Part shown: in pieces, positions 613 through 38,784 of the stretch
Layout of the letters: the number at the start of each line of letters is the position of its first letter
How positions within the stretch are numbered: position 1 is the stretch's first letter
From: Candidatus Zixiibacteriota bacterium
GTDB taxonomy: Bacteria; Zixibacteria; MSB-5A5; WJJR01; JAJRUJ01
NCBI GenBank assembly: GCA_020051695.1
Contig: JAGVQM010000034.1
Coordinates: forward strand, 1-42,594
DNA length: 42,594 nt
Reading direction: 5' to 3'
Notes under the pieces: model-generated
Database searches by the model: none
Seen by the model: the letters and a program-made list of their open reading frames with translations, nothing else
Told to the model about the DNA's origin: nothing
Program-made: the position numbers and the translations under genes

Positions 613-2469
613 TCATCCATACCGCCAGCCGCGGTCGCGGGCCAGGCGGGGGTTGGGTTTCCAGTCGGTAAGGCGGGAGGCGGGCTTGTCTTTGGGCGGT
701 GGTGGGTCGGTTTTCTTGTCGGCAGCGGGCATGAAGACTTTCGTCTCCTGTTCCGGGGCGATGCGATATGATTGTTCGGCGGCGCGAACAATCTCCGGCA
801 TTAAACCTTCTTCAGCAACCTGCTCGGTGAACTTGCGGCGGCCGTTGACCAGATCGCGCAGGTAGGTGTTAATCTGCTCCCGCGAATAATATTTCTCCGG
901 CATGTACGCGCTTAAATCGGCGCCCTCGGCCGAAACGATCTCCTCTGTCCCGAGGAGACTGGTGCGGTAGACATTGGTGCCGCGTAAATCGCCGCGCTGG
1001 ATCGCGGCCATGGTGTTGATCGGCACGCGTTCGGTCTTGCGGACCATTTTCTTTTTGCCGTCGGGAGAAATCTCAATGATCTCGCCCATGCCGCCGGTGT
1101 TATATTGATAAAAATGCACCTTGCCGGGGTAATTCGCGGCCAGATTCATGATGATTTTATAAAAATGGTTCACCTTATGAGCGCGCGAACCGATAATGAA
1201 CGGATCGGTGCCCACTGTCCGCACGGATTCCCCGGCTTTCGCGGGATTCGAGGCATACGAATGTGATGATTCGCCCCATAAATATGCCAGTGCCGCCTGA
1301 ATGGGATTCAGCCGCTGGGAAAAGGTCATAATCGTGTTGCGCCGGGTGATAAAGGCGAAGACCAGGCCGTCGAGTTCATCGATCGGCGGCAGGTTCAGCG
1401 ACGGGTACCAGATATTCTTCATCGCGAACGGACCGCGCCCCTGCCGGACTTTCAACCGTTTGCGCATGATCACTGCCCGGCCGTTTCCGCACAGGTTTTC
1501 ATCAAGGAAATCAGGCCGCCCGTCGGCATCGATCATGACATTTTCGTACAGCGCGCTTTTATGCACGAGCGCGTTATACATTGCTTCCTGCAGCCTTTTA
1601 TCGACATCGGTCTTGACGAAATAATTTTGCTCCGACCCGTACGCCTCGCCGTTGTTTTTCAAAAAGCAAATATCATCCTGGCAGACATACGTCCGTTCGC
1701 CTTTGGACCAGTCCAAACCCAATTGATGACACGACCAGGTGCTTTTGCCTGTCGCCGAAAGCCCAAACAGCAACACGCCGTATTTTTTCAGTTTATTCGA
1801 TTTGTGGTCCCGGATCACCACCACTTTGGTGCCGGCATGCAGCCCGAGCATGCCCAGTTCATCGGCCGAGTGCATCCCCTGCCGCAGGAAACCTTTCTTG
1901 TCCTCGCCCATGTAATCCGAGCCGAGGACGATATTCAATTTATGTTCGGGGAGGGTCAGGACCTGCTGGCGGATCTGATGTTCCTCGGGGATATGGATCA
2001 GCATGAACTCCGGCCCCGGCGCTTTGGTGACCGGGCCCATCGTATGGGCCCACATATACGCCTGCCGGTGATTTTTTAAATCGGCAATGGACATATACAG
2101 CGTGCATTTGGGGTTATATTCCGGGTTGTCGCCCATCTGCCGCCGCAGCCGCACAAACGGCAGCGTTTCCATGAGGTGCAACACTTTTTCAAGCTCGCCG
2201 GGGGCGGCGGCGATAATTTTTTTCTTTTCATCGGACAGATGAAACTCGCGGATTTTCTCGCCGCCCAGGTAACAGGTCTTGCCGCCGATACGGCTGGAGA
2301 CTGTCGAACGCCACCCCCACGACCCGAATTTGGTGTGCACACCGGTCTGGATCGCCGGTTCGCGCAGGTCCTCCAATTCGACATCGCGGATGTTCGGGCC
2401 GTGCAACCGCCGCTGCAGGTCGCGGTAAAACCGGTCGTACATCGGCACATCATATAGCGAATCAGACAT
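613..2469 (-). CDS. pckA: Divergent ATP-dependent phosphoenolpyruvate carboxykinase
   Basis: Predicted to convert oxaloacetate plus ATP to PEP, CO2 and ADP (gluconeogenesis, cytosol). The 618-residue protein is longer than typical PckA (about 530-540). The kinase-1a loop GLSATGKST is at residues 236-244 (GLSGTGKTT in classical enzymes). It is preceded by a GMLGLHAG segment whose His212 matches the metal-binding histidine region, and followed by the kinase-2 aspartates QDDICF (265-266) and an FVKT segment matching CYAKT. The block ALYENVMIDADGRPDF aligns by eye with the PckA ALLENV region. The classical GRSPKDK substrate loop is not recognisable, so the substrate should be treated as probable. 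A proline/lysine-rich tail of about 40 residues ends the protein. It is the last gene of the operon, 6 bp after ndk, with AAGGA about 10 nt before the ATG. Confidence 0.78.
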   Translation of the reverse strand: MSDSLYDVPMYDRFYRDLQRRLHGPNIRDVELEDLREPAIQTGVHTKFGSWGWRSTVSSRIGGKTCYLGGEKIREFHLSDEKKKIIAAAPGELEKVLHLMETLPFVRLRRQMGDNPEYNPKCTLYMSIADLKNHRQAYMWAHTMGPVTKAPGPEFMLIHIPEEHQIRQQVLTLPEHKLNIVLGSDYMGEDKKGFLRQGMHSADELGMLGLHAGTKVVVIRDHKSNKLKKYGVLLFGLSATGKSTWSCHQLGLDWSKGERTYVCQDDICFLKNNGEAYGSEQNYFVKTDVDKRLQEAMYNALVHKSALYENVMIDADGRPDFLDENLCGNGRAVIMRKRLKVRQGRGPFAMKNIWYPSLNLPPIDELDGLVFAFITRRNTIMTFSQRLNPIQAALAYLWGESSHSYASNPAKAGESVRTVGTDPFIIGSRAHKVNHFYKIIMNLAANYPGKVHFYQYNTGGMGEIIEISPDGKKKMVRKTERVPINTMAAIQRGDLRGTNVYRTSLLGTEEIVSAEGADLSAYMPEKYYSREQINTYLRDLVNGRRKFTEQVAEEGLMPEIVRAAEQSYRIAPEQETKVFMPAADKKTDPPPPKDKPASRLTDWKPNPRLARDRGWRYG

Positions 2470-2475
2470 TACCGT

Positions 2476-2898
2476 TCATTCCTTGGGCAGGATTTCATCC
2501 TCGCGAAAAAAAAATGCGACCTCGACTTTGGCCGTGGTTTCGGAATCGGAACCATGCACGACGTTTTTTTCAATCGAGGTGCCGAACTCGCGTCGGATCG
2601 TGTTGTATTTCGCTTTGGCCGGGTCGGTGTGGCCCATCAACTCCCGCCAGCGTTCGATGGCGCCGTGCCCGCCGAGGACCAGCACCATAATCGGCCCGGA
2701 AGTCATGAACTCGACCAGCGACTTGTAAAACGGTTTGCCCTGGTGGACCGCGTAAAATTTCTCGGCGCGTTCCCGGTCCAGCCACAGGACTTTGGTCCCG
2801 CGAATAATCAGCCCCGCGCGTTCGACCTTGTCGATGATCCGCCCGGCCAGTTTGCGCCGCATGCCGTCGGGTTTGATGATTCCCAGCGTATTGGCCAT
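2476..2898 (-). CDS. ndk: Nucleoside diphosphate kinase
   Basis: Transfers the gamma-phosphate between NTPs and NDPs through a phosphohistidine; cytosolic. At 140 residues it has the normal family length. The N-terminus has the IIKPDG motif (residues 7-12), and the active-site histidine is H115 in NVVHGSDS. The start is supported by AGGGG 7 nt upstream of the ATG. It lies 9 bp after the aminotransferase fusion and 6 bp before pckA, so it is almost certainly co-transcribed with both. In this context it could balance nucleotide pools around a kinase-type carboxykinase, but that link is inference, since ndk is a housekeeping gene often found in mixed operons. Confidence 0.96.
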   Translation of the reverse strand: MANTLGIIKPDGMRRKLAGRIIDKVERAGLIIRGTKVLWLDRERAEKFYAVHQGKPFYKSLVEFMTSGPIMVLVLGGHGAIERWRELMGHTDPAKAKYNTIRREFGTSIEKNVVHGSDSETTAKVEVAFFFREDEILPKE

Positions 2899-2907
2899 GG
2901 ATTGCCC

Positions 2908-5253
2908 CTATCCGATTAACTCCCGCACCCGCGCCTTGAGCGCCTCCGGCGGGATCGCCGCAACATTGACTTTATAGGCCTGAGCCACGCGGAACAGTTG
3001 ATGGAAATTGCGCCGCTGCAGGTCTTGGGCATCAGCCGAATCGGTCAACAGATACGGGTTGAAGAACGGCTGAGTCTTGAACGGCGACATCCCCGGACCG
3101 TCGGGCAGACGATATTTGCCTTCGGCCACCCAGTTGAGCGCATCCTCGGTCGAGAGTTTCTCAATCGCCGGCGCATGTGGTTCGTAATGCAGCAGGGCGA
3201 CCGCGGTCAGTCGCGTGCGCTTGGTATAGCGCTGCGGCCCGTGAATCCATGACGGGTCGACCATCGCGCGGGAATCGGTTGATCCCCAATAACAATACGG
3301 ATCGCCGAGGTCCAGCGGGTTTTCCTCGGTCAGACCCTCGATATTGGTCCACTCAGCGCGTTTGGTCACCACGTTCTCGCACTTGCTGCGGTCAAAGATA
3401 CGGGCATACCGTTCATTGTTGCGCGCCACCACGGTCTTAAGATAGAATTTCCGTTCCGGAGCATCGGCGATAGCCTCATTCCCGCGATAGCGGACGAAAA
3501 TCCAGTCGTTGGTGACAAAGCGGGCGTCCTCGTCGTTGAGCAGCCGGGTAAATGTCGAGCCGCGTTTCATGCCTTTGGGGCCGATCAGCGCCAGTCCCCG
3601 GCCGTTGAAATCGACACACGCTGCGCGGACGCTGTGGATGTCAAGCATCCGCTCGCTGGCCAGCGCGGCCATGGTCAGCGCCCACGAACGCACCTGGCCA
3701 TAATATGACGTGTTGAACAAAATTCCCGTGCGCATCTCGGCGTTGAAATAGCCGTGCGACGTTCGGCCGGGGACACCGTCGACCGCATAAATGACCCCAT
3801 GCGGCTCCAGATCGGATTCCAGTTGTGCGGGGTAGAAATTTTCGATCCAAAAATCGTTTAAGTGCGGAACGTTGGTCCGCAGCTGGATAATGATCCCGTT
3901 GATATTGGCGTTCCATTCGAAATAGCGGTCAAACGGCAGCGCGGCCTCGGCTTCCTGCACCAGGATATCGCGTTCTTCAATGCTGATGTTTGCATCGACC
4001 GGTACATTCGTGCGCGGATGGCTCCGGAAATTCTGCAGGGACACACGTTTGAACCGTGGCGATTCTTTCAGCCGGGCCATCGACTCGATGAGGCGGTCGG
4101 TGCCCTCCTCGATTTTGTCCATGGAGGTCGCATAGGATAGGCGGATGTTGTCATCGGTGCCGAACGCGCTGCCCGGCACGATGGCCACTGCCGCCTCGCG
4201 TAACAGGTAATACGCCAGCCCGTACGAGTTGCGGATTTTCATCCCGCTATATTCGGTGTTGTAATAAGCCGAAGTATTCGGGAACAAATAGAATGCGCCT
4301 TCCGGCGTGTGGCAATTGATCCCGGGGATGCGGCGCAGTTTGCTTAACATATAGTTGCGCCGGGCCTGAAACTCGGCAACCATCCGGCCGATTTCCGACT
4401 GGCTGCCCGAGAGCGCCTCGGCGGCGGCCTTTTGTGCAATAGAGTTGGCGTTCGATGTCGTGTGCGACTGGACGATACCCATTGCCCCGACCAGGTCGCG
4501 CGGTCCGGCGGCATAGCCGATGCGCCAGCCGGTCATCGAATACGCCTTGGACACACCGTTGATCGTGATTGTTTTTTCCTTGATCCGGTCGGACAGCGAG
4601 GCAATCGCGTGAAACCGGTAGTCGTCATAAATTATTTTACTATAGATTTCGTCGGCGATGATATACAACCCTTCGGCGACCGCCTGCTCGCAGACCTCGC
4701 GCAGCCGGTCCGGATGATAGGCGGCCCCGGTGGGATTGCTCGGATTATTGATAATAATGGCCCGGGTATTGAAACTAATATTTGCTTTCAATTCCTCGGC
4801 AGTCAGGCAAAAACCGTTTTCTTCACGCGTAGGAACGATTCGTGGCGACCCGCCCAGCATCAAAACTTGTTGCGGATACGACACCCAAAAAGGTGAGGGG
4901 ATGATGATTTCATCATCGCGGTTAATCAGGGCCGACAGCGCGTTAAACAGACTCTGCTTGGCGCCGGAGGAGACAATGACCTGTTGCGGCGTATACTCGA
5001 CACCATAATCCTCGCGATAGCGTGTGCAGATTGCCTGCTTCAGTTCGGGGATGCCGTCATTGGCGGTATACCCGGTGAAATCGGCATCCAGAGCTTTTTT
5101 TGCAGCGTCTTTGATGCTCTGCGGCGTGGGAAAATCGGGCTGGCCGGCGGAGAAGTTGATGACATTAATCCCCTGCGCTTGCATCGCTTTGGCCTTGGCG
5201 TCGATGCGCAAGGTCGGCGAAAGTTCCAGACGGCCGATCCTGTTGGAAATCAT
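2908..5253 (-). CDS. Aspartate aminotransferase fused to a PEPCK/HPr-kinase-like domain
   Basis: A single 781-residue frame with two parts. Residues 1 to about 394 form a complete class I PLP aminotransferase: NPSNPTG at 170-176, DEIY at 201-204, the PLP lysine K236 in GVSKAYSMTGWRIGY and the carboxylate-binding arginine R371. They resemble the bacterial Ib aspartate aminotransferases, which usually end here. Residues about 400-781 resemble the downstream PckA. LALIGPKGMKRGST (554-567) sits where the P-loop should be but lacks the GxxxxGK[S/T] pattern. ARFVTNDWIFV followed by FYLKT matches the kinase-2 and FVKT blocks. This second domain is probably catalytically altered or regulatory. The ATG start overlaps the flotillin stop by 4 bp (ATGA). 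The domain homology is judged by eye; a lost stop codon between two genes is the main alternative. Confidence 0.85.
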   Translation of the reverse strand: MISNRIGRLELSPTLRIDAKAKAMQAQGINVINFSAGQPDFPTPQSIKDAAKKALDADFTGYTANDGIPELKQAICTRYREDYGVEYTPQQVIVSSGAKQSLFNALSALINRDDEIIIPSPFWVSYPQQVLMLGGSPRIVPTREENGFCLTAEELKANISFNTRAIIINNPSNPTGAAYHPDRLREVCEQAVAEGLYIIADEIYSKIIYDDYRFHAIASLSDRIKEKTITINGVSKAYSMTGWRIGYAAGPRDLVGAMGIVQSHTTSNANSIAQKAAAEALSGSQSEIGRMVAEFQARRNYMLSKLRRIPGINCHTPEGAFYLFPNTSAYYNTEYSGMKIRNSYGLAYYLLREAAVAIVPGSAFGTDDNIRLSYATSMDKIEEGTDRLIESMARLKESPRFKRVSLQNFRSHPRTNVPVDANISIEERDILVQEAEAALPFDRYFEWNANINGIIIQLRTNVPHLNDFWIENFYPAQLESDLEPHGVIYAVDGVPGRTSHGYFNAEMRTGILFNTSYYGQVRSWALTMAALASERMLDIHSVRAACVDFNGRGLALIGPKGMKRGSTFTRLLNDEDARFVTNDWIFVRYRGNEAIADAPERKFYLKTVVARNNERYARIFDRSKCENVVTKRAEWTNIEGLTEENPLDLGDPYCYWGSTDSRAMVDPSWIHGPQRYTKRTRLTAVALLHYEPHAPAIEKLSTEDALNWVAEGKYRLPDGPGMSPFKTQPFFNPYLLTDSADAQDLQRRNFHQLFRVAQAYKVNVAAIPPEALKARVRELIG

Positions 5254-6641
5254 GATTTGTTCTCGTCCGAAACCGGGGGTTGTCCGCCGGCTGATTTGTC
5301 GGCGATTTTTTTCAGCCAGTTTTCCAAGTCGAATCCGGACAGCGATTTAACGACCGTCGGCAATTGCGACATCATCGCGGCCAGCTCTCCGGTAATCTTG
5401 GAGGTACCCATTTTACCGTCATTGGAGATCATGATGATTTTATCGATCTTGGAAATCGGCGCGGCCATTTCACGGGCCAATTCGGGCAATTTTTCGTACA
5501 TCATCTGGATCAGCGCCGGCTGGGAATAGGAATTCCACGATTCGGCTTTCTTGCGCAGTGCGTCGGCCTCGGCCTCGCCCAGCTTTTCCACCAGTTCGGC
5601 CTCGATTAAGCCCTGCATCCGTTTGGCTTCGGCCATACCGCGGGCCTCGGCTTCGACACGGAACTGTTCGGCCTCGGCGGGCTTGCGGACTTTGGCTTCC
5701 AGTTCCTGTTCGACACGGGTGATTTCCTTTTTCTCCAGTTCGATAGCCGTATCTTTTTCAATAAGGCGGACTTTGGCTTCCTCCGCTTTTAATGTCTGGT
5801 TGAGTTTATGGCGCTCAAGTTCATAGGCAAAATCAGCATCGGCTTTTTTACGATTTAGCGAGATTTGCAGTTCGGCCTTTTTCAGTTCCATTTCCTGGTT
5901 GACTTCCGCAACCCGGGTGTCGGCCTGGATCTTGGCGATATCGCCTTCCTTTTTCGCTTCGGCGGATTTGATGATCGCGTCACGGGCGGCCTCGGCCTCG
6001 GCGACTTCGGCGTCACGGCGCGCCTGCACGATGCGCGGCCGGCCCAACGCCTCTAGATACCCCGACGGATCGGTGATTTCCTTAAGGTTGAACGACAGCA
6101 GGTTCAAACCCATGTTGGTAAAATACGCGCCGACATCATCGAATACTTTGGCAGTGAAATCTTTGCGGTTTTTATTCAATGATTCAAGGTTCGTTGCGCC
6201 GATCAACGCCCGCGTCGAACCTTCCAGTGTGCGCAGGGCCACATCGCGGATATCAGTTAGCGGTTTTCCCAAAAACTGCTCGGCGGCCAGATGAATCGAG
6301 ACTTCATCACTGGCGATCTTGACTTCCGCCGTCCCACGCACCGTACACCGGATGCCGTTGGTGGCAATGGCGTCCTCGACCATGATTTCCATGGGAACGA
6401 TTTCCAGCGGCAGCACTTGCGCCTGCTCGGTGAACGGGTTGACAAAGGTGCTGCCGCCGATACGGTAGCGATAGCCGATCTGGCGTTTAGTGCCGTCAGG
6501 CATGGTGATCGTTCGCTTTTTTCCCCCGGAGATAATCAGCGCTTCATTGGGTCCGACTTTGCGGTAGTTTTTCAGCACGAAAACCACGATGGCGGCCAGG
6601 ACCACCACTGCGGCAAGAGCGGCAATCAATAGGGGGTTCAC
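5250..6641 (-). CDS. Flotillin-like SPFH/band 7 membrane scaffold protein
   Basis: Likely a membrane-anchored scaffold that organises functional microdomains. I place the start at GTG 6641, preceded by GGAGGAG 8 nt upstream, giving 463 residues. Longer in-frame starts run into the promoter at 6709-6738. The N-terminal segment is one hydrophobic helix (residues about 3-25). The SPFH domain follows to about residue 200, then a long Ala/Glu/Lys-rich coiled coil (about 210-400) typical of flotillins, and a hydrophilic tail. It is the first gene of the operon and its stop overlaps the aminotransferase start. The family is known for raft-like scaffolding, and here it could tether the downstream metabolic enzymes to the membrane. 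That is inference from operon order only. Confidence 0.88.
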   Translation of the reverse strand: MNPLLIAALAAVVVLAAIVVFVLKNYRKVGPNEALIISGGKKRTITMPDGTKRQIGYRYRIGGSTFVNPFTEQAQVLPLEIVPMEIMVEDAIATNGIRCTVRGTAEVKIASDEVSIHLAAEQFLGKPLTDIRDVALRTLEGSTRALIGATNLESLNKNRKDFTAKVFDDVGAYFTNMGLNLLSFNLKEITDPSGYLEALGRPRIVQARRDAEVAEAEAARDAIIKSAEAKKEGDIAKIQADTRVAEVNQEMELKKAELQISLNRKKADADFAYELERHKLNQTLKAEEAKVRLIEKDTAIELEKKEITRVEQELEAKVRKPAEAEQFRVEAEARGMAEAKRMQGLIEAELVEKLGEAEADALRKKAESWNSYSQPALIQMMYEKLPELAREMAAPISKIDKIIMISNDGKMGTSKITGELAAMMSQLPTVVKSLSGFDLENWLKKIADKSAGGQPPVSDENKS

Positions 6642-6650
6642 GATTATGTC

Positions 6651-6657
6651 TCCTCCA
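6651..6657 (-). promoter_or_regulatory. Strong Shine-Dalgarno for the flotillin gene
   Basis: On the minus strand GGAGGAG lies 8 nt before the GTG at 6641. It decides that start over upstream in-frame candidates and shows that translation begins with MNPLLIAAL. Confidence 0.75.
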
Positions 6658-6668
6658 AAATGATTAAA

Positions 6669-6688
6669 GGCGGCAACATTCTGCCGCC
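6669..6688 (-). promoter_or_regulatory. Hairpin in the 5' leader of the flotillin operon
   Basis: GGCGGCA and TGCCGCC form a 7-bp stem with a 6-nt loop. It lies between the predicted transcription start and the Shine-Dalgarno. There is no T-run after it, so it is not a standard terminator. It could stabilise the mRNA 5' end or bind a regulator. Confidence 0.45.
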
Positions 6689-6708
6689 AAACAACTAATT
6701 TCACTTGG

Positions 6709-6738
6709 AATATAGCAATATGTCCGAACAAAAGTCAA
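6709..6738 (-). promoter_or_regulatory. Sigma-70-type promoter of the flotillin-aminotransferase-ndk-pckA operon
   Basis: Read on the minus strand: -35 TTGACT (6733-6738), an 18-nt spacer, and -10 TATATT (6709-6714). Transcription would start near 6702, giving a leader of about 60 nt with the 6669-6688 hairpin and the strong SD. Both boxes match the consensus at five of six positions. Confidence 0.6.
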
Positions 6739-37287: not shown

Positions 37288-38784
37288 ATGACTGGCGGCG
37301 TGAAAATCCTCCGGCGTTTGGCCCGGTCGGCGGGGATCGGCATATTCACGCTGGGCCTGGTTTACCTTCTGTTGTTAATCCCCGAAACCTATCCGGAGGT
37401 CCCGCAACAAAGTGAGCGGCGCCCGTTCGCCTGGAATCAGGATGAATTATGGTCACAGCTGGAGGAACAGTTCGACCAGGCCCGCCGTGATGACGGCGCA
37501 ACACTCGGGCCGCGCGCGGATTCGCTGCTGGCCGGCTTTCGCGCACTGTTGGATATTGCCGCCGGGCGCGCCCTCGCCCCGGAGGATACGTTATGGGCCA
37601 CGGTGGAACGCGCGTTTTTCTCGCCGGCGCCGGTGATCGCGGTCCGGAGCGAACGGTTGCCGGAGTATGCGGCGTGTTATACGCAGCTGCGGATTGCGGT
37701 CAAAAGTCAGTCGCAGCACTGGGACATGTCCGCGGTTGCCGCGCGGGCGCGTTTATATCGGCTGCTGTACGGGAGCCGCGCGGCGGTCGAAGAGGTCATG
37801 CTGCAGGCGACGGCCGATATCGTCCCCGCCCTGATTGACGGCTCGGCGGAACCGTCCGCGACACCGGCGGCATCCTTCCTCGGGGTCACCGTCCACAGCG
37901 GTGATATCCTGGTCTCCCGTGGCGGCGCGCCGACCTCGGCGCTGATTGCCCGGGGCAATGATTTCCCGGGAAATTTTTCGCATGTTGCACTGGTGTACGT
38001 CGATGATCAAACGCACGAAATCTCGATTATTGAATCACACATTGAACAGGGTGTCGCGATCGCCACACCGGAGGAATACCTGGCCGATAGGAAACTCCGC
38101 GTGCTGGTGTTACGGCTGCGCGCGGATGTGCCGCAGCTTGCCACCGATCCGCTCGTTCCGCATACAGCGGCGCGCCTGGCGCTGGATGAGGCACGCTCGC
38201 GCCATATCCCTTATGACTTTGCCATGGATTTTGCCGACGATCGCCAGTTGTTCTGTTCAGAGGTGGCGTCCGCGCCTTACCGTAAACTCGGGATTACGCT
38301 GTGGATGGGCTTATCGCATATCTCCTCACCGGGCCTGCGTGCCTGGCTGGCCGGTTTCGGGGTCAGACATTTCGTGACCCAGGAACCATCGGATTTGGAG
38401 TACGACCCGCAATTGTGCGTCGTCGCCGAATGGCATGACCCGCGGTTGCTGGCCCAGGACCATCTGGACAACGCGGTCATCGATGTTATGCTGGAAACGG
38501 CCGACATGCATCCGCAATTGCCCTATGCGATGACCATGTTACCCGTGGCCCGGCTGTCCAAAGCGTATAGTTCGATCTTGAACCTTTGCGGAAAAATCGG
38601 ACCGGTGCCCGAGGGGATGAGTGCGGCGGCGGCGTTGCGGAATGTGGCTTTCTCGGCGAAGCACGCGGCAATCAAATCCCGGACGAAACAATTGGCTGAT
38701 GAATTCAAACAACGCCGGGGGTATGCTCCGCCATACTGGGTGATCGTCCAACTGGCCCGCCGGGCGCAGTCGGACACGGAGTGA
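37288..38784 (+). CDS. YiiX/YebB-like NlpC/P60-superfamily cysteine hydrolase
   Basis: Predicted papain-fold (permuted) hydrolase, likely acting on lipids or peptidoglycan at the envelope. It has 498 residues with an N-terminal membrane anchor (about 18-31). The helical region 40-195 is of unknown fold. The catalytic block then comprises SGDILVSRG (204-212), FSHVAL with H232, and FCSEVAS with C323, which is the typical order for permuted members such as YiiX. A helical C-terminal region (about 400-498) is extra. No good ribosome binding site precedes the ATG at 37288; a GTG at 37300 is possible. Confidence 0.82.
   Translation: MTGGVKILRRLARSAGIGIFTLGLVYLLLLIPETYPEVPQQSERRPFAWNQDELWSQLEEQFDQARRDDGATLGPRADSLLAGFRALLDIAAGRALAPEDTLWATVERAFFSPAPVIAVRSERLPEYAACYTQLRIAVKSQSQHWDMSAVAARARLYRLLYGSRAAVEEVMLQATADIVPALIDGSAEPSATPAASFLGVTVHSGDILVSRGGAPTSALIARGNDFPGNFSHVALVYVDDQTHEISIIESHIEQGVAIATPEEYLADRKLRVLVLRLRADVPQLATDPLVPHTAARLALDEARSRHIPYDFAMDFADDRQLFCSEVASAPYRKLGITLWMGLSHISSPGLRAWLAGFGVRHFVTQEPSDLEYDPQLCVVAEWHDPRLLAQDHLDNAVIDVMLETADMHPQLPYAMTMLPVARLSKAYSSILNLCGKIGPVPEGMSAAAALRNVAFSAKHAAIKSRTKQLADEFKQRRGYAPPYWVIVQLARRAQSDTE

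Follow-up and report, generated by a model that had tools for sequence, protein, structure and literature searches.

An aspartate aminotransferase-type domain fused to a PEPCK-like domain with a degenerate P-loop, in a conserved gene group with flotillin and a divergent PEPCK

The gene studied here encodes a class-1beta aspartate aminotransferase domain fused to a C-terminal domain with the fold of PEPCK, in which residues of the nucleotide and metal sites are replaced in the window's clade (the window is the whole stretch of 42,594 nucleotides that was analysed). The C-terminal domain is conserved, and the fusion gene is accompanied by partner genes encoding a flotillin and a divergent PEPCK. 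We give about an even chance to the reading that these genes form a conserved oxaloacetate module, in which the C-terminal domain of the window's clade would be a non-catalytic coupling part or a regulatory or sensing part. The link of the fusion to oxaloacetate metabolism is supported indirectly, by synteny and by co-occurrence with a divergent PEPCK that appears catalytically intact; the coupling, the direction of flux and the substrate are what we infer from this arrangement.

The fusion gene is located on the minus strand, between a flotillin gene, whose stop codon overlaps the fusion ATG by 4 bp, and a gene encoding a nucleoside diphosphate kinase (NDK), which starts 9 bp downstream of the fusion, a position conserved in the window's clade. 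The gene encoding the divergent PEPCK follows 6 bp after the NDK gene (Table 1). The initial annotation had correctly delimited the fusion as a single open frame, which contains no internal stop. It had also placed a PEPCK gene two genes downstream, and this stands with one refinement: the gene at 613-2469 encodes a divergent paralogue, since a canonical ATP-PEPCK is encoded elsewhere in the same genome (G000:C5:4311-5702, L172; PF01293, E 1.6e-222) and the module is thus not its sole PEPCK. With 276 bits against a cut-off of 369, the divergent PEPCK falls short of NF006821; it aligns with the E. coli-type PEPCK at an hhalign E-value of 2.8e-21 and keeps the catalytic residues R65, Y207, K212, K213, H232, D268, D269 and R333 and the P-loop.

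Table 1. Features of the fusion gene and its neighbours in the window (residue numbers of the fusion protein; PEPCK residues in E. coli numbering)
Feature	Position	Strand	Basis or remark
Flotillin / SPFH protein	5250..6731	minus	Band_7 and Flot, FloT-like
Whole fusion gene, 781 aa	2908..5253	minus	Uninterrupted frame; frame of about 780 aa kept in relatives
Class-1beta aspartate aminotransferase domain, residues 1-395	4069..5253	minus	Pfam Aminotran_1_2, 4.1e-73
PLP Schiff-base Lys236	4546..4548	minus	SKAYSMTGW motif
PEPCK-like domain, residues 400-781	2911..4056	minus	AlphaFold2, Foldseek, hhalign
QLRTN..HL.DFW.EN block, residues 457-472	3838..3885	minus	Alignment; highly conserved in the fusion family
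R522-S523, equivalent to PEPCK K212, K213 (Mn ligand lost)	3685..3690	minus	Profile alignment
R543, equivalent to PEPCK H232 (Mn ligand)	3625..3627	minus	Alignment
Degenerate P-loop GPKGMKRGST, residues 558-567	3553..3582	minus	Alignment
N582-D583, kinase-2 position (PEPCK D268/D269)	3505..3510	minus	Profile alignment to the divergent PEPCK
RSKCEN block, residues 622-627, aligned with PEPCK LxENV	3373..3390	minus	Alignment
C-x4-C-x5-C-x8-C region, residues 618-660	3274..3402	minus	Mostly lost here
Nucleoside diphosphate kinase	2476..2898	minus	Pfam NDK, 6.8e-52
Divergent PEPCK	613..2469	minus	Pfam PEPCK_ATP, 3.1e-23

The N-terminal part shows a full-length match to Aminotran_1_2 (residues 30-388) that includes the PLP lysine motif, GVSK-AYSMTGW, invariant in the alignment across all fusions having the region, so that the complete aminotransferase with a PLP lysine at position 236 read from the sequence in the initial annotation is borne out. 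The nearest solved structures are aspartate or aspartate-prephenate aminotransferases (6f77, 1j32, 6f35 and 5wmh). Class-1beta enzymes of this type (6f77, 1j32, 5wmh) have in common with the fusion the N-terminal domain, the PLP lysine and the carboxylate-binding residues, and Lys99 and Arg371 are present in its aminotransferase sequence. These solved relatives have a single domain and a length of about 380-475 residues, and the PEPCK-like tail of the fusion is absent from them. Aspartate is assumed as the substrate.

For residues 391-781, no family of Pfam or NCBIfam scored above cut-off, and a BLASTP comparison of the fusion with the downstream divergent PEPCK gave no match; homology therefore had to be established from profiles and structure. 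The AlphaFold2 model of the C-terminal domain, made from 13 sequences, shows a mean pLDDT of 75 and a pTM of 0.80. The best 50 Foldseek matches of this model in the PDB are all PEPCKs, with E. coli PEPCK 6v2m at an E-value of 3.5e-15 and ATP-type PEPCKs aligned at TM 0.61-0.68 over about 400 columns with about 15% identity; in the Foldseek viral library just two matches are significant, both to PEPCKs. By hhalign, a profile of 69 C-terminal domains aligns with canonical PEPCK over 312 columns (pairwise E 4.5e-11) and with the downstream divergent PEPCK over 254 columns (E 3e-4), with the motifs in the right order, and the negative controls (reversed and unrelated profiles) gave E-values of 0.15 or worse. 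Judged by the predicted structure together with the profile alignment, the C-terminal domain belongs to the PEPCK fold. The resemblance first noticed by eye is thus real, the idea of a domain unrelated to the PEPCK/HprK fold fails, and the motifs had been well placed: GPKGMKRGST corresponds to the PEPCK P-loop GLSGTGKTT, NDW to QDD-I (kinase 2) and FYLKT to YFVKT. A prediction of the full-length fusion (pTM 0.47) gave no usable domain interface.

The C-terminal domain shares with ATP-PEPCK (PF01293; E. coli PckA) the fold and the order of the motifs, Y207, P-loop, kinase 2, FxxKT, ENV and R333. It differs in its low identity, in its length (380 vs 540 residues), in its fusion to an aminotransferase and in Pfam, where nothing above cut-off was found against PF01293. 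HPr kinase/phosphorylase and HprK-related kinases (TIGR00679, TIGR04352, TIGR04355) belong to the same superfamily, and some members show weak matches to them around the P-loop; however, these are far below the cut-offs (for TIGR00679 and PF07475, best 8e-4, in 3 of 13 members), the domain is larger and its P-loop is degenerate here. The divergent PEPCK is both a genetic partner and a distant homologue of the C-terminal domain, but is encoded by a separate gene and has a complete active site.

In the window's protein, R564 occupies the place of the Walker lysine (K254) and G565 that of the threonine (T255), so the canonical GxxGxGK[ST] is absent. The Mn ligands K213 and H232 are substituted, by S523 and R543, and D269 is kept as D583, the second kinase-2 aspartate; Y207 (Y517) and the substrate-binding R333 (R662, in the window's clade) are also retained, and the region of Arg65 is outside the profile alignment of the domain. 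Across the family, the K213 equivalent is not a lysine in nearly all fusion sequences inspected, the H232 equivalent stays histidine in L026, L029, L030 and most Acidobacteriota with GRT, and the R333 equivalent is histidine in Aminicenantes. Since the Walker lysine is changed to arginine, the threonine to glycine and K213 and H232 are replaced, PEPCK catalysis is very unlikely in the window's clade, which supports the suggestion of the initial annotation that catalysis by the second domain was lost or changed.

The form of the P-loop is clade-specific. Canonical GTGKS or GKST (and GKA) are found in Zixibacteria families f3, f4, f11 and f15, GTKKT in Aminicenantes-type genomes and GSGRT in other Acidobacteriota, and the GxKRG form of the window's clade has one origin (support 99) in a tree from which the P-loop columns were left out. 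Since several Zixibacteria keep a canonical P-loop, kinase activity may persist in their version of the domain. Downstream of RSKCEN, most lineages outside the window's clade show a four-cysteine motif, C-x4-C-x5-C-x8-C, a possible metal site, which is eroded in the window's clade. Two Zixibacteria genomes contain a stand-alone protein of 580-600 aa of the HprK/PEPCK superfamily (L128:1423-3222 and L129:1645-3387), encoded next to ABC transporter-like genes. Both GTGKST and DD are intact in this protein, for which Pfam gave nothing above cut-off; it is the closest relative of the fused domain, with which it aligns at an E-value of 1.8e-31.

Of 132 Zixibacteria genomes, 40 contain the fusion, and two further matches correspond to the stand-alone relative; in the Acidobacteriota phylum (Acidobacteriota/Aminicenantes), the fusion is present in at least 32 of 297 sampled genomes. 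Its frame is nearly always 770-800 residues where the contig permits. A FastTree phylogeny built on the aminotransferase domain unites the fused forms in a single clade (support 99). This clade contains only one true stand-alone aminotransferase, that of G046 (L168:1428-2639), two other short members being cut by contig ends, and since it is nested among fused relatives, the C-terminal domain was lost later there. The fusion is real and old: it arose once, and its second domain has since been lost once. The possibility that a lost stop had joined two separate genes was considered and rejected, since relatives in many genomes share the frame of about 780 aa and a single clade. A simple Nei-Gojobori count applied to pairs of the window's clade gives the C-terminal domain a dN/dS of 0.02-0.12, comparable to that of the aminotransferase domain; this amounts to strong purifying selection and indicates that the C-terminal domain is functional. 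Higher values, with a maximum of 0.25, were obtained for some very close pairs from Acidobacteriota. Invariant blocks are spread through the entire domain in the alignment. One genome sampled as Acidobacteriota phylum, G119 (L068, L191), contains the operon of the window's clade with flotillin, fusion, NDK and divergent PEPCK, which points to horizontal transfer or mis-binning.

A flotillin gene is directly upstream of the fusion in 17/17 wide-flank loci, from both phyla; among relatives, only G031 clearly departs from this, with no flotillin match. The divergent PEPCK gene is in the same operon as the fusion in the window's clade, G167 and G196, and is divergently transcribed beside flotillin in G264, G288, G121, G036 and G057; in G009 and G050 it occupies a separate locus. 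Of 58 relatives, 20 have the fusion, and 17 of these also encode the divergent PEPCK, which none of the remaining 38 does. In the Acidobacteriota set of 297 genomes, 23 encode it, 19 of them with a fusion match, and G239, in which the start of a fusion is at a contig end, makes this 20 of 23. Fisher tests of the co-occurrence, which ignore phylogeny, gave 6e-12 and 1e-17 before G239 was added. Fourteen genomes of the Acidobacteriota phylum have the fusion and no divergent PEPCK match, and several Acidobacteriota/Aminicenantes of this kind retain both fusion and flotillin. A GTP-type PEPCK is found instead in all five such fusion genomes checked (G099, G100, G175, G273, G374), and neither type was matched in the fusion genome G098. 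Three genomes (G148, G173, G194) show the divergent PEPCK and no fusion match, so the two are not obligate partners. In G046, the aminotransferase is kept and no match was found for the second domain, flotillin or divergent PEPCK. Four Acidobacteriota genomes of about 1.9-2.0 Mb (G150, G107, G123, G342; L192-L195) encode another PEPCK subfamily, which shares about 39% identity with the divergent PEPCK; recoding by in-frame TGA in these genes was considered and rejected, the TGAs being ordinary terminal stops.

Oxaloacetate is a branch point of gluconeogenesis, the TCA cycle and amino-acid synthesis; it is produced from aspartate by aspartate aminotransferase and is the substrate of PEPCK. The conserved genes would handle oxaloacetate and aspartate by pairing a flotillin-type membrane scaffold with the PEPCK-tailed aspartate aminotransferase and the intact divergent PEPCK, together with NDK in the window's clade. 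The aminotransferase domain would interconvert aspartate and oxaloacetate, and the divergent PEPCK, oxaloacetate and PEP. On the simplest reading, the C-terminal domain would have begun as a P-loop protein and become non-catalytic in the window's clade. That it has lost the ATP site and is nevertheless strictly conserved, next to an intact PEPCK, suggests that it serves in coupling or regulation and is not a second catalyst. Such a pseudoenzyme domain may form a link between the aminotransferase and either the partner PEPCK or the flotillin scaffold, or may instead bind oxaloacetate or PEP and thereby regulate the aminotransferase. A more specific picture, a membrane-scaffolded metabolon in which flotillin recruits the aminotransferase and the pseudo-PEPCK pairs with, controls or feeds the dedicated divergent PEPCK, is put forward tentatively and is somewhat doubtful; if true, a PEPCK-fold pseudoenzyme would have emerged as the kinase site of a fused domain decayed.

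The aminotransferase could also be mainly of the prephenate or another 2-oxoacid type, which class-1beta aminotransferases also include, its link to oxaloacetate then being incidental. An aspartate/prephenate enzyme (5wmh) is among the close solved relatives and the window's genome encodes a second class-I aminotransferase paralogue. We nevertheless consider this unlikely, given that the nearest NCBIfam models are aspartate aminotransferases (with the equivalog cut-off missed, 411 vs 550), that Lys99 in GAKQSLF corresponds to the GGKQ lysine of aspartate aminotransferases, and that the neighbouring divergent PEPCK appears to have intact oxaloacetate chemistry. A similarly low probability is given to a C-terminal domain that is still an enzyme, a kinase of the HprK/PEPCK superfamily acting on the aminotransferase product or on a protein, with its nucleotide site altered in the window's clade. 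The substitutions described above in this clade, among them those of the Walker lysine and of the Mn ligands K213 and H232, speak against it, as do the absence of the Walker lysine from the GRT clade too and the scarcity of lysine at the K213 position. It would agree with the weak HPr kinase HMM matches at the P-loop, with the canonical P-loops and DD kinase-2 of other Zixibacteria, with the KT of Aminicenantes and with the intact site of the stand-alone relative L128.

Fold and substrate logic would also suit a bifunctional protein that converts aspartate to PEP on one chain, but the Mn ligands and Walker motif of PEPCK are gone in the window's clade, the R333 equivalent is replaced in Aminicenantes and the same operon has a distinct gene for an intact PEPCK, which makes it highly improbable. 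That the C-terminal domain is a decaying vestige is scarcely credible: the P-loop and the cysteines are progressively lost and the complete domain once, in G046, but its low dN/dS and its invariant blocks indicate constraint throughout.

The folds of both parts are known, and what is new is the domain at family level, which has no Pfam family, and the architecture; in open-access PMC papers, no description was found of the fusion, of its PEPCK-like domain or of flotillin with these enzymes. A producer of oxaloacetate fused to a relative of its consumer and kept in two poorly studied bacterial phyla is a test case for channelling or product sensing, and relatives whose P-loops are either canonical or decayed in one of three ways make the passage of a PEPCK-fold domain to a non-catalytic part traceable; to our knowledge, no PEPCK-fold pseudoenzymes have been described. 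Elsewhere in the window, the protein encoded at 37288-38784 on the plus strand contains a permuted papain-like amidase domain, C92, of the YaeF/YiiX type, for which the Pfam match is weak (1.9e-9).
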